From Bdellovibrio sp. ZAP7 (GTDB lineage: Bacteria; Bdellovibrionota; Bdellovibrionia; Bdellovibrionales; Bdellovibrionaceae): a stretch of 64,000 nucleotides of DNA. Position 1 is the stretch's first letter; the number at the start of each line of letters is the position of its first letter. Made by a program: the position numbers and the translations under genes. The notes below the pieces were generated by a model. The model did not search any database. It had not been told where the DNA came from and was given only the letters and a program-made list of their open reading frames with translations. The stretch lies in NCBI RefSeq assembly GCF_006874645.1, contig NZ_CP030082.1:496001-560000 (forward strand). The letters are read 5' to 3'. This document shows, piece after piece, positions 3,286-12,284 of this stretch.

Positions 3286-4374
3286 ATGAAAGCTCTTAAG
3301 TTAATGACAGCAGCCCTAGCGCTAGTAATTGGCGGTCAGGCTTCAGCTGCATCGAACCAGGAAATCATCACTCACGTGTCTTACAACGTGATCACAGCAA
3401 CCTATGTTGAGCTTGCACAAGCGACTGTTTCTTTGAAACAGGCTGTCGACATTTTCGTTCAAAACCCGAACGAAGCAACATTGGCTCAAGCGCAAAACGC
3501 ATGGCGCGGAGCTCGTATGCCGTGGGAAGCCTCTGAAGCTTTCTTGTTCGGACCTGTGGATTCTTTGGGTATCGATCCAATGCTTGATACTTGGCCTTTG
3601 AACAGATTGGACCTGGATGCAGTTTTGGCTTCTGGCAGAACAATCACTCCTGAGATGATTCGTTCTTTGGGTACGAACCTTCAAGGTTTCCACACGATCG
3701 AATATCTGTTGTTTGGTGACGGAGTTCACTCCAACACAAAACCGATTTCTGCTTTTACTGCAAAACAATTCGAATACCTTTCTTCGACGGCACAAGTTGA
3801 AATGGAGCATGCGGCAGCTTTGGCATATGCATGGACGAACCGTTGGAATCCAGAAGATGCTTCTTCTCCAGGGTATTCTGCGATTCTTGCGCAGCCAGGT
3901 TGGAACAATCAATTCTACACATCTGATGCGGCTGTATTGGAAGAGCTTGTAAAAGGCATGATGGCGATTGCTGATGAAGTGGCAAATGGTAAAATCGCGG
4001 ATCCTTTGGGCGGTGACATCAATTCTGCAAACATGGCATTAGTTGAATCACCGTTCTCTTGGAACTCTTTGAACGATTTCACTTTCAATATCCGCTCTAT
4101 CTACTCTGTGTATACAGGTACATACAGAACGTCTCAAGGTCCGGGCGTAAAAGCTCTGGTTGAGCGTCACGATCCTCAGTTGGCTCAACAGATTGAACAA
4201 CATATCTTGGGTTGCATGCAATTGATCCAAGCGATCCGCCCTGCAGGTGGTGGTGATTTCGGTCAAGCGATCTTTACTCCAGATGGTCGTCAACGTGCTC
4301 AACAGGCGATTCAAGCATTGAACCAACTTCACGCGGTTTTGGAACAACAAGTTCTTCCTTTGGTGGACAAATAG
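3286..4374 (+). CDS. Imelysin family protein (periplasmic iron-uptake type)
   Basis: The 362-residue product has a signal peptide (ending QASAAS) and the imelysin signature GxHxxE as GFHTIEYLLFG near residue 135. The family (IrpA, EfeO and ICMP-like proteins) is an all-helical two-bundle periplasmic fold linked to iron acquisition; early claims of peptidase activity are doubtful. It sits between a porin and a di-haem protein with a 4-base gap downstream, a set common in imelysin loci. AGGAGAATAA precedes the start. Iron as substrate is inferred from family and neighbours. Confidence 0.88.
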   Translation: MKALKLMTAALALVIGGQASAASNQEIITHVSYNVITATYVELAQATVSLKQAVDIFVQNPNEATLAQAQNAWRGARMPWEASEAFLFGPVDSLGIDPMLDTWPLNRLDLDAVLASGRTITPEMIRSLGTNLQGFHTIEYLLFGDGVHSNTKPISAFTAKQFEYLSSTAQVEMEHAAALAYAWTNRWNPEDASSPGYSAILAQPGWNNQFYTSDAAVLEELVKGMMAIADEVANGKIADPLGGDINSANMALVESPFSWNSLNDFTFNIRSIYSVYTGTYRTSQGPGVKALVERHDPQLAQQIEQHILGCMQLIQAIRPAGGGDFGQAIFTPDGRQRAQQAIQALNQLHAVLEQQVLPLVDK

Positions 4375-4378
4375 TCAT

Positions 4379-5890
4379 ATGAAAAAATCGACTCTATTTT
4401 TAGCGATTCAATTGTTTTTTAGCGGAGCTGCGATGGCTGCTCCAGCCATCGATATGGACTACGTCAATGCAGTTATGTCGGGTGGTGACACGACAGTGAT
4501 TTTTAAAAGAGAGTCGATTCAGGCATTCCGCAATCCTGCGGCAAATTTGTCTGAAGAAGAAGTTCGCCGTCACATGGCAGGTGATGCCCTTTTTGAGAGA
4601 AATTTTTCCGATGATCCAGGTCGTTTTGACCATGGTTTGGGGCCTGTTTACAACAACACGAACTGCAATGCCTGCCACGCTAAAGACGGGCGCGGTGCAT
4701 TGCCAGTTTTGCCAATCGGTCAGGAAAAAGTTTTGCTTCGTCAAAACGAAGCGGTCTTCTTGCGTATCAGTATAGAAGACGGTCTAAAGAAAGTTAAATC
4801 TGCTGCAAACCACTGGGGTGCACCGGTTCCTGTTCCTGGCTTCTCGGATCAATTGTTCCACTTGGGTTCTTACGGCGTTCGTGAAGATCTTGAAGGTGCG
4901 GGACAAGCACAAGTATGGATGAGTTTTGAAAAGTCATCTTTTACTTATCCTGATGGCAGCACAGTTGAACTTCGTAAACCAATCTTCACTGTGACTTCTC
5001 CTTACGATCAGTATTTTGATTCTGTGACTGGCCAAATGCGCAGCCGTCTTTTTGAAAAAGACGTGAAAATGGGGCCTCGTATGGGGACTCCGATGATCGG
5101 CTTGGGTTTGCTCGAGGCGATCAAGGAATCTGATATCCGTGCATTGGCCGCTCGTGATTTGTCTGCTGAAGGTGTTCACGGTCAAGTGAACATGGTTTTT
5201 GATATTCAAAAATCTATGGCTGGTGATGCGTACCCAGTTTCTATGGGTCGCTTTGGTTTGAAAAACAACACGCCCACAGTTTTTCACCAATCCTTGGGCG
5301 CTTTGCGCGGCGATATCGGCGTGACGAACTATGCTTTCCCTGATGAAAGCATCGCGGGAACTCCATTGTACGATAAATTCATGGCAACTCGTCCGCCCCT
5401 AGAGGAGCCGCAGGCTTCTAAGGAAGTGGCTGATGATTTGGTATTCTACTCTCGCACATTGGCGGTTCCTTCTCGCCGTAACGTGGACAACCCTGTTGTT
5501 ATCCGCGGAGCAAACTTGTTCCACCAAACTAGCTGCACAAGCTGTCATCAACCAAGCTTTGTAACCGGCTCACACGAGATTCCGGCTTTTGCTAATCAAA
5601 AAATCTATCCTTATACTGATATGCTTTTGCATGACATGGGACCTGGTTTGGCTGACGGCCGACAAGATTTCGATGCGACCGGAAATCAGTGGAAGACGCG
5701 TCCTCTATGGGGTATGGGTCAAACTCAAACGATCAATCCACGTGCTGGCTTCTTGCACGATGGCCGGGCTCGCACTTTGGAAGAGGCGATTTTGTGGCAT
5801 GGCGGTGAGGCAGAGTATTCTAAAACCAAGTTCACTCAGCTTCCGAAAGATGATCGTATCGCTTTGATTCAATTTATTCGCTCTTTATAA
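4379..5890 (+). CDS. Di-haem cytochrome c, DUF1111 family (putative thiol oxidoreductase)
   Basis: The 503-residue product has a signal peptide (MKKSTLFLAIQLFFSGAAMA) and two c-type haem sites: CNACH near residue 98 and CTSCH near residue 386. This matches the DUF1111 di-haem family often annotated as thiol oxidoreductase and often encoded beside imelysin. It begins 4 bases after the imelysin stop, so it is in the same operon. A periplasmic redox role, possibly changing the iron oxidation state during uptake, is inference. Confidence 0.88.
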   Translation: MKKSTLFLAIQLFFSGAAMAAPAIDMDYVNAVMSGGDTTVIFKRESIQAFRNPAANLSEEEVRRHMAGDALFERNFSDDPGRFDHGLGPVYNNTNCNACHAKDGRGALPVLPIGQEKVLLRQNEAVFLRISIEDGLKKVKSAANHWGAPVPVPGFSDQLFHLGSYGVREDLEGAGQAQVWMSFEKSSFTYPDGSTVELRKPIFTVTSPYDQYFDSVTGQMRSRLFEKDVKMGPRMGTPMIGLGLLEAIKESDIRALAARDLSAEGVHGQVNMVFDIQKSMAGDAYPVSMGRFGLKNNTPTVFHQSLGALRGDIGVTNYAFPDESIAGTPLYDKFMATRPPLEEPQASKEVADDLVFYSRTLAVPSRRNVDNPVVIRGANLFHQTSCTSCHQPSFVTGSHEIPAFANQKIYPYTDMLLHDMGPGLADGRQDFDATGNQWKTRPLWGMGQTQTINPRAGFLHDGRARTLEEAILWHGGEAEYSKTKFTQLPKDDRIALIQFIRSL

Positions 5891-7903: not shown

Positions 7904-8664
7904 GTGACTTCTTTGGTGACGATTTTACGGTCGAGCTAAAAAAGTATTTCCTGGATGCCACTTTGAAAGAAGTGGAATCCTTCATCGACTTGATTGATGA
8001 AAGTACATTGCAAAAAGTGACAGTCGAGATTCGCGAAAAAGCAGAATCTTGGGTGGTGGATGCAAAATCCAACGAATTTACTTTCTTAGAATCTTGGCTG
8101 ACCGATTTTAACGCGAAAACAGATTCCTTGGATTCCGCCGAGCAGATGATTAAGGCGTTGAGCCTGTTGCAAAAATATCTCGCTGCTTTATTAGTTGATG
8201 GTAAGGACAGTGCAGAACTTGCTTTGCAGTTTCCATTGGTGGCCCAAAGCAGCCGCGAAGCTCTTTTCCTTCATTGTAAAACTGGGAGCCAGCAATTTGT
8301 GGTTCCTATTATAAATGTGATTGAAATCACCTCATCGCTTCCTATGTCTCCGTTGCCAGACTTACGTGAAGGTCTTGCCGGAGTGATCCCATTCAGAGGC
8401 GAAGCGGTTCCCGTGATTGACTTAAAATCATACGGATTTCATTCTGTAAACACGAATAAATTTTATTACGTTATCTGTGAGCATGCCGGCACACGTTTTT
8501 CATTACAAGTTACAGAGACTGATGAACTTTTAAGTCTTAAAGACAAAGATATGCAAAACTTAAGTGATCATCCCACCATGCTTACGGTACCTTTCATCAA
8601 GCAATTTTTCGTTAAGGAAGAGCACAGTGTGATGGTACTCGATATTGAAAAATTGGTGGCTTAA
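7900..8664 (+). CDS. CheW-domain coupling protein with an N-terminal helical extension
   Basis: The 254-residue product begins with about 120 mostly helical residues of no recognised family. A CheW domain follows from about residue 125 (strand LFLHCKTGSQQFVVPI, then GVIPFRGEAVPVIDL). CheW domains link CheA to chemoreceptors. It overlaps cheA by 4 bases, and its stop overlaps the next start by one base, so the three proteins are translationally coupled. The N-terminal part is absent from classical CheW (about 160 residues) and may be an extra partner-binding module. Confidence 0.85.
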   Translation: MSDFFGDDFTVELKKYFLDATLKEVESFIDLIDESTLQKVTVEIREKAESWVVDAKSNEFTFLESWLTDFNAKTDSLDSAEQMIKALSLLQKYLAALLVDGKDSAELALQFPLVAQSSREALFLHCKTGSQQFVVPIINVIEITSSLPMSPLPDLREGLAGVIPFRGEAVPVIDLKSYGFHSVNTNKFYYVICEHAGTRFSLQVTETDELLSLKDKDMQNLSDHPTMLTVPFIKQFFVKEEHSVMVLDIEKLVA

Positions 8665-10217
8665 TGAATTCACATTATTTGTTTCCTGGTAAGCACGCGG
8701 CCTTTAAAGAAGAGACCGTTATTTCCACGCTGTTGGGTTCTTGCGTTGCAGTTGCGATCTATGATCCGACAACACGAATCGGCGGATTAAATCACTATCT
8801 ATTGCCCGATGCGCAGCCTAATGAGCGTGCGAACTCTCGTTATGGCAATCACGCCATCCAAATGTTGGTGGAAGATTGCGTAAAGCTGGGTGCCAATCGC
8901 TCGCAATTAAAAGCGAAAGTCTATGGTGGCGGAAACGTTATCAGTGTGTCTTCTTTGGGAGATGCCATCGGTAAACGTAACATTGAACTTGCCGAGAGCA
9001 TGTTGCGTGAAATGGGTATTCCCATAACCGAGCGCAACGTGGGTGGCGAATCTGCGCGCACTATAAAATTTAATACGGCTACTGCGGATGTTTTGCATAA
9101 TCAAACAAAAGAAGGCGGCGCCGACAGTCCTGTCGACGTGTCTGGTTTTAAACCTTTGGCGGTGGCTAAAGGTGTGAAAGTTTTGGTAGTGGATGATTCA
9201 GCCACAGTGCGCACGTTGTTCTCCAAAATCTTCACCAGCAGTGGTTTGGAAGTTGTAGGTGCAGCAGCTGATGCTTATCAAGCCCGCGATTTAATTGTTA
9301 ATAAAAAACCTGATGTGATGACTTTGGATATCGAGATGCCAAAGATGTCAGGAGTTATGTTCCTAGAAAAAATCATGAAGCATCATCCGATTCCGGTGGT
9401 GATGGTTTCTTCTCTGGCGAATACCGGGGAGGCCGCGCTTAAATCTTTGGATTTGGGTGCAGTAGAGTTCGTACATAAACCGTCACAGTTTGATCCGCAA
9501 GTTTTAAAGGAGCTCGCTGAAACGCTGGTTATGAAAGTGCGTGCAGCAGCATCTGTGAATGTGATTAAAAAGTTAAAAGAAACGCCGGCTTCAGAAGCCC
9601 GTGTTTCTGTTCCTACGAAAGCTGTTCGTCGTGCAGCCGAGCTTAAAATCGTTGTGGTCGGTGGCAATGCTGGCAGCGCCGATGCACTGGAACAGTTTAT
9701 TGCAACTCTTGCGGCGGATACTCCGCCAGTTGTGGTGTCTTGCAGTACTGTTGCGAATTTCGTGACGGCATATATTTCTAAAGTAAAAGCGAAATCCAAA
9801 GTCACACCAGTTGTGGGTAAGGATGGGGATTTCCTTAGAATGGGTCACGTCTATTTTATTCCGTCAGAACATCACGGTAAGATTGTTACGGGTCCCCAAG
9901 GTCCTGTTTTGAAACTTGAGAAAGGCGCGCCTGTGGCGTCTCAGTTGCCTTCCAGTAACGTCCTATTCCAATCTGCTGCGAACTCCTTTGGAAAAGGTGT
10001 CTTTGCGGTTCTGTTGGGTGGATTTGGTACTGATGGCGTTAACGGCCTGACCGAGGTGCAAAAACTTGGTGGCGCAAGCGTCGTACAGCATCCAGAAGAA
10101 GCTCAGTTCCCTTATGGCCCGCAAAAAGCGATTGAGCTTGGCGTGGCAGATGAGGTATTAAAAGCTGAAGCTTTGGCTGCGTACTTGATGCAATACCGTA
10201 ACCAAAACCTATATTAA
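8664..10217 (+). CDS. CheD-receiver-CheB fusion with a degenerate methylesterase domain
   Basis: Three domains in 517 residues. CheD (1-160) keeps the deamidase residues: Cys27 in GSCVAV and His44 in GLNHYLL, the numbering seen in Thermotoga CheD. The receiver (about 171-295) has acidic DD177-178, phospho-Asp222 in LDIEMP and Lys272 in HKP. The CheB-like domain (325-517) has GGNAGS where the catalytic serine motif GASTGG belongs, and SCSTVA where QHMP supplies the histidine. Only the Asp in GFGTDG (457) remains. Deamidation is probably intact and ester hydrolysis probably lost. No cheR, cheY or receptor gene is adjacent. Confidence 0.88.
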   Translation: MNSHYLFPGKHAAFKEETVISTLLGSCVAVAIYDPTTRIGGLNHYLLPDAQPNERANSRYGNHAIQMLVEDCVKLGANRSQLKAKVYGGGNVISVSSLGDAIGKRNIELAESMLREMGIPITERNVGGESARTIKFNTATADVLHNQTKEGGADSPVDVSGFKPLAVAKGVKVLVVDDSATVRTLFSKIFTSSGLEVVGAAADAYQARDLIVNKKPDVMTLDIEMPKMSGVMFLEKIMKHHPIPVVMVSSLANTGEAALKSLDLGAVEFVHKPSQFDPQVLKELAETLVMKVRAAASVNVIKKLKETPASEARVSVPTKAVRRAAELKIVVVGGNAGSADALEQFIATLAADTPPVVVSCSTVANFVTAYISKVKAKSKVTPVVGKDGDFLRMGHVYFIPSEHHGKIVTGPQGPVLKLEKGAPVASQLPSSNVLFQSAANSFGKGVFAVLLGGFGTDGVNGLTEVQKLGGASVVQHPEEAQFPYGPQKAIELGVADEVLKAEALAAYLMQYRNQNLY

Positions 10218-11907: not shown

Positions 11908-11929
11908 TTTTATCTCATCCTTGAGCTAA

Positions 11930-12223
11930 GCCCCTACATCCATGCAGGGAAGCAACAGTGTGCCAATGCAAGAAGCGTTCACAGACTTCGGTCGAGAGGC
12001 CACGCTTGAAGCCCGCTTCCCTAGAGCTGCAACTTCGCGACACACCATCCGTGGTTCACCGTCGCCGGCTGCGCCGGTTCGCGCATCCATGCGCCGACGG
12101 AGGTCGCTGCGTTTCAGCCCTAGGGAAGCGGGCTTCAATCGTGTCCTCTCTCCTAGCTGTTCTTTTCTTCGCACGGGCAAACTCATTCTTCCTTTAGGAA
12201 GAGGGATTCGAGTTGCAGAAATA
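11930..12223. repeat. Gene-free GC-rich block with nested inverted repeats
   Basis: About 300 bases without a supported gene. A perfect 19-bp inverted repeat (12006-12024 and 12120-12138) brackets a GC-rich core that itself contains GCGCATCCATGCGC and paired CCGTCG/CGACGG. Open frames of about 80-107 codons occur on both strands together, which is what a palindromic GC-rich element gives by chance. It looks like a folded intergenic repeat element. Genome copy number cannot be checked here. Confidence 0.5.
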
Positions 12224-12259
12224 AAAATGGCGCGAGGACTTCGCGCCATTTTGTTTTTT
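12224..12259. terminator. Bidirectional intrinsic terminator at the ddl 3' side
   Basis: A perfect 12-base stem (12224-12235 with 12241-12252), a five-base loop and T-runs on either strand. It lies 25 bases past the stop of the minus-strand D-Ala-D-Ala ligase gene. Confidence 0.85.
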
Positions 12260-12284
12260 TAGAAATTGAGAAGGGGGATGGGGA

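Follow-up and report, generated by a model that had tools for sequence, protein, structure and literature searches.

The fusion described here is the third of three overlapping chemotaxis genes in a window of 64,000 nt from Bdellovibrio sp. ZAP7 (contig NZ_CP030082.1, positions 496,001 to 560,000). The gene for the kinase CheA2 overlaps that for a CheW-domain protein by 4 bp, and the latter overlaps the fusion gene by 1 bp. The fusion joins CheD, a receiver and a degenerate CheB methylesterase domain, hereafter the dead domain (Table 1). It scores above the Pfam cut-offs for CheD (92 bits), Response_reg (85 bits) and CheB_methylest (110 bits; cut-off 24 bits). It falls below the NCBIfam cut-off for CheB (NF001965), at 246 bits against 293, whereas the other CheB of the genome reaches 419, and its best score against the NCBIfam CheD equivalogs is 131 bits against a cut-off of 223.

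Table 1. Features of the CheA2-fusion locus, in window coordinates.
Feature	Coordinates	Strand	Basis
CheA2, P2-less CheA kinase (Hpt, HATPase, CheW), 576 aa	6173..7903	+	Pfam; eight-orthologue alignment
CheW-domain protein with degenerate N-terminal Hpt-like region, 254 aa	7900..8664	+	CheW by Pfam
CheD-receiver-CheB(psi) fusion gene, 517 aa	8664..10217	+	ORF; Pfam CheD, Response_reg and CheB_methylest over cut-off
CheD domain, aa 1-145	8664..9098	+	Aligned to CheD of PDB 2F9Z chain C
CheD catalytic codons	Cys27 8742-8744; His44 8793-8795	+	
Receiver domain, aa 170-285	9171..9518	+	Pfam Response_reg; conserved D177, D178, D222, K272
Receiver phospho-acceptor Asp222 codon	9327-9329	+	
Degenerate CheB methylesterase domain, aa 328-512	9645..10199	+	Alignments to 1A2O and 6YMZ; 29-member comparison
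Dead-domain codons	Asn335 9666-9668 AAT; Ser361 9744-9746 AGT; Asp457 10032-10034 GAT	+	Read directly

The kinase motifs of CheA2 (H66, N296, DDGKG and SGRGVGMDV) are intact in the alignment. A P2-sized segment is absent, only a short stretch separating the Hpt domain from the dimerisation region; the lack of P2 that a first, sequence-only reading of this DNA had reported is borne out in all eight aligned orthologues. The orthologues of G032, G037 and G085 have an extra N-terminal extension, which in G032 is a receiver by Pfam. The CheW-domain protein has relatives in G032 and G037 (L086, L087) with an Hpt domain over the Pfam cut-off and a visible phospho-His motif. It appears to descend from a kinase-less protein of Hpt and CheW domains, with the Hpt His lost in Bdellovibrio. 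Genes for an imelysin and a di-haem oxidoreductase (3286-5890) adjoin the locus in several Bdellovibrio genomes, including those that have CheD only. Beyond the fusion, a GC-rich intergenic element (11920-12265) separates the aldehyde dehydrogenase gene from the D-Ala-D-Ala ligase gene. It folds far better than shuffled versions (z -9.4) and has no match in an Rfam search. Two segments within it (12009-12024 and 12120-12135) form an exact 16-nt inverted repeat, and its end is a terminator-like hairpin.

We name the three key positions of the dead domain by the numbering of Salmonella CheB, whose catalytic triad is S164, H190 and D286. Alignment of the fusion with solved CheB structures places Asn335 at S164, Ser361 at H190 and Asp457 at D286. 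The match to 1A2O has an E value of 5e-51 with the single fusion sequence and 1.5e-73 with a 25-member profile. Hence, the fusion lacks the Ser-His-Asp triad of a CheB methylesterase, as the sequence-only reading had it, and there are further active-site substitutions, Cys360 at Q189 and Phe454 at M283. AlphaFold models were poor (pLDDT 45 for the full protein and 50 for the dead domain, with few input sequences). The triad positions are therefore confirmed through sequence alignment only, and we make no structural claim about the pocket; the best structure matches of the low-confidence dead-domain model are CheB entries. The receiver has the full set of acidic pair, acceptor Asp, Ser/Thr and Lys (D177, D178, D222, S250 and K272).

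The dead fusion was sought in 100 relatives, in 141 genomes of the order and in 369 of the phylum. It is present in 21 of 24 genomes of the genus Bdellovibrio, in one of them divided between two contigs, and an orthologue in another Bdellovibrio genome is 79% identical. Beyond the genus it occurs in G035, G032, G037, G085, G090 and G106, and outside the order in G273. A variant in G098 has CheD joined straight to the dead domain, with the receiver absent. The predicted loss of catalytic residues holds throughout these relatives: the nucleophile position is Asn in 29/29 members and Ser in none, the H190 position is never His (0/29) and is Ser in 90%, and the Asp equivalent to D286 is kept in 29/29. 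Since the broken triad is common to all 29 members, it is not a sequencing slip. CheD Cys27 and His44 are found in all 27 fusions that contain the CheD segment, and receiver Asp177, Asp178, Asp222 and Lys272 in every member that contains the receiver segment; the intact CheD and receiver residues noted from the single sequence are thus general. A scan of viral contigs with an intact CheB as query found no CheB relatives.

In a set of 41 intact CheBs, 52 positions are conserved in at least 90% of the sequences; at 26 of these positions, many of them in catalytic motifs, fewer than 10% of dead members have the intact residue. The replacement residues around the old pocket (G334, N335, Q427, F454, P477, P483 and Q487) are themselves nearly invariant. 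For pairs with a computable dS, the dead domain has dN/dS values of 0.03 to 0.08. Since dS is saturated for most pairs, amino-acid identity is the safer guide. Between ZAP7 and G006, G020 and G014, identity is 80-82% for the dead domain, 74-79% for the CheD domain and 88-89% for the intact CheB catalytic domain. The fusion has a full-length open frame wherever the contig permits. Purifying selection acts on the dead domain. Its catalytic residues are gone and yet it is strongly conserved, so this CheB domain has probably become a regulatory part rather than an enzyme.

When did the catalytic residues disappear? In a tree of receiver-CheB sequences, made with a quick method and including several long branches, a branch with SH-aLRT 100 sets the dead group apart from all other sequences, and the fusions whose triad is intact group by themselves. 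The deepest dead members, G273 and G098, are strongly diverged. In a CheD tree made with a careful method, the CheDs of dead fusions and a number of stand-alone CheDs form one group (support 100/99), within which the stand-alone CheDs of G012, G017, G033 and genus g6 are nested. The best CheD tree needs four changes for the stand-alone CheDs, and constraining these to a single clade is borderline rejected (p-AU 0.046). To judge from these trees, the catalytic residues were lost once, long ago. Because the stand-alone CheDs lie inside the dead-fusion group, the simplest history is one fusion and one catalytic loss, after which the protein was stripped down to CheD several times. At this locus in G012 and G017, CheD is all that separates the di-haem oxidoreductase gene from the aldehyde dehydrogenase gene. 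Relatives have CheA2 upstream of CheD and receiver-CheB downstream of it, so that a single deletion cannot explain these CheD-only loci. CheD is the constant part, about four lineages having retained it alone after loss of the receiver and the dead domain.

The receiver-bearing fusion closely tracks CheA2. A CheA2 profile run over the order separates 26 genomes above 640 bits from a next score of 391. CheA2 is present in 26 of 27 order genomes with a receiver-bearing fusion and in none of the other 114. The sole exception is G106, a genome 64% complete, in which the fusion is present and no CheA2 was found. CheA2 is also absent from G098, which has the receiver-less variant, and in G273 the fusion lies beside an ordinary CheA with no CheA2 nearby. 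Part of this co-occurrence is simple linkage, since the genes for CheA2 and the fusion lie close together in a single operon. Operon linkage does not, however, explain the retention of CheD, in the middle, when both flanks go.

The ZAP7 genome has an intact CheB, with CheR1, CheA1 and CheW1, at 3.70 Mb, away from the fusion; hence, the fusion is not needed for demethylation. The rest of the chemotaxis set comprises three CheR, 24 MCP and two CheX. The only CheD of the genome is that of the fusion, and no separate CheC was found, both hits to CheC models coinciding with CheX hits. In G032, G037, G090, G106 and G273 the dead fusion is followed directly by an intact CheB gene, as is the receiver-less form of G098; Bdellovibrio, G035 and G085 have their intact CheB at another place in the genome. 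The ZAP7 receptors mostly have Glu-Glu, not Gln, at methylation-type sites, and a strict CheD-type motif is present in 6 of the 22 receptors scanned. Given these sites and this count, deamidation itself may matter little.

One published Bdellovibrio CheD is Bd2829, an attack-phase protein (PMC12546842). We considered whether the fusion is Bd2829 and rejected this, since G006 encodes a further CheD (L198) in an MCP-CheR-CheD-CheW cluster at 2.73 Mb (G006:C1:2734359-2734640), which is unrelated to that of the fusion (27% identity); this second CheD is equated with Bd2829 by gene-number position only. The matching MCP-CheR-CheW cluster of ZAP7 (L096) is without that CheD.

Does the dead domain dock receptors? 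This was part of the earlier interpretation, of which the broken triad, now seen to be conserved and of single origin, has stood, while the docking has found no support. In E. coli CheB, the site for the receptor tail (NWETF) is at the junction of receiver and linker and uses R134 and H138 (PMC8609364). The fusion has N299 and K303 at these two sites, and 25/29 members have Asn or Asp in place of R134. With these pentapeptide-binding residues replaced, docking of the receptor tail by the dead domain is not favoured. Several ZAP7 MCPs (L051, L053, L054, L059, L060 and L062) have C-terminal tails such as GNTDGF, GTTDGF, GNRDGF and RTTSGF; tails of the GNTDGF type resemble the enteric pentapeptide tether, but without the Trp.

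We propose that a covalently attached receiver and dead CheB domain control the CheD of the fusion, a receptor glutamine deamidase and receptor-binding adaptation protein, and together gate its access to receptors in response to CheA2. We put the probability of this reading at about 0.5. It joins two published observations. In Bacillus subtilis, CheD matters more through receptor binding than through deamidation, and CheC and CheY-P control that binding (PMC3513319). In E. coli CheB, phosphorylation opens the contact between the receiver and the catalytic domain (PMC8609364). In ZAP7, the neighbouring P2-less CheA2 would phosphorylate Asp222; the receiver would pack on the CheB domain as in a real CheB, and phosphorylation would open the contact. 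The dead domain would serve as a clamp or positioning surface that sets the access of CheD to receptor helices. Kinase activity could thereby regulate the extent of CheD action on receptors, or of its binding to them, with esterase work available from the separate intact CheB. One polypeptide would then do what CheC and CheY-P do for CheD in B. subtilis. A phospho-gated CheD is consistent with a receiver that tracks CheA2 and with a CheD that outlasts the other parts, and the rewired signal flow first suggested for this system is plausible. Against this reading, G098 retains the dead domain without a receiver, so that partnering the receiver is not the sole role of the dead domain.

The main rival is that the receiver and dead domain form a decoy that damps the intact CheB. 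They would compete with it for CheA phosphoryl groups, as a phosphate sink, and for receptor sites, damping demethylation, with CheD carried along as an independent enzyme. The intact CheB gene immediately downstream in six relatives fits this idea, since both proteins would there meet the same kinase and the same receptors. Moreover, activated, catalytically dead S164A CheB served as the receptor-binding form in measurements in E. coli (PMC8609364), and CheD operates apart from the rest in about four lineages. In Bdellovibrio, however, the intact CheB and the fusion are at separate loci, the fusion being with CheA2, and a phosphate sink does not predict the receiver-less G098, which keeps the dead domain. 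We regard the decoy as unlikely, although a serious contender. Somewhat less probable is that the dead domain has acquired new chemistry, or that its remodelled pocket accommodates a ligand or a peptide such as CheD or a receptor helix. The near invariance of the seven replacement residues invites this explanation, but a structural clamp also fits that invariance, there is no candidate mechanism, and the deepest members, G273 and G098, are greatly diverged.

A further alternative is that the dead domain is a decaying relic, retained merely through its fusion to CheD. It does evolve faster than the intact CheB catalytic domain, and it has been lost several times. Nonetheless, dN/dS far below 1, replacements of single origin that are invariant across four families, and frames open over their full length already disfavour decay, which we consider improbable. 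Least probable of all is an active methylesterase that employs other residues: Asp457 is retained and the predicted fold matches CheB, but the nucleophile Ser and the base His are missing from all 29 members, and we give this very little credence.

How does the fusion compare with known systems? It shares with Salmonella CheB (1A2O) a receiver followed by a C-terminal CheB-fold domain, with the same order and linker position; it differs in having Asn and Ser for Ser164 and His190, in lying behind CheD, in the replacement of Arg134 and His138, and in scoring below the NCBIfam CheB cut-off. Its Cys27 and His44 are placed as in the CheDs of Thermotoga (2F9Z chain C) and B. subtilis and its CheD domain is over the Pfam cut-off, but here a single polypeptide holds CheD, a receiver and a dead CheB, and no CheC partner was found. 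The architecture itself is not special, since there are 18 CheD-receiver-CheB fusions elsewhere in the phylum (e.g. L091, L092, L131 and L133) with the same order and similar length. Those fusions differ in that the triad is whole and that they form a separate clade in both trees; several are in CheA-CheW-MCP-CheR operons without a second CheB alongside. A functional parallel is the CheC/CheD/CheY-P system of B. subtilis, in which phosphorylation-dependent control of CheD is the outcome that we propose for the fusion. There, however, control is exerted in trans by CheC and CheY-P (PMC3513319), whereas here the receiver is fused to CheD.

Pseudoenzymes are well known outside CheB. Our text search of the literature found no report of a CheB pseudoenzyme or of this dead fusion, a weak negative since subscription journals were mostly outside its scope. 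We tentatively suggest, with rather less confidence than we place in gating itself, an undescribed class of adaptation protein, in which a receiver and a pseudo-methylesterase have replaced CheC and CheY-P, a P2-less CheA controls CheD, and a tandem CheB does the catalysis. If our reading is correct, CheB has been turned from an enzyme into a regulator, and its binding and catalytic roles would have been separated by nature. The natural losses of parts, of the receiver only or of the receiver together with the dead domain, would then be ready-made tests of what each part does.
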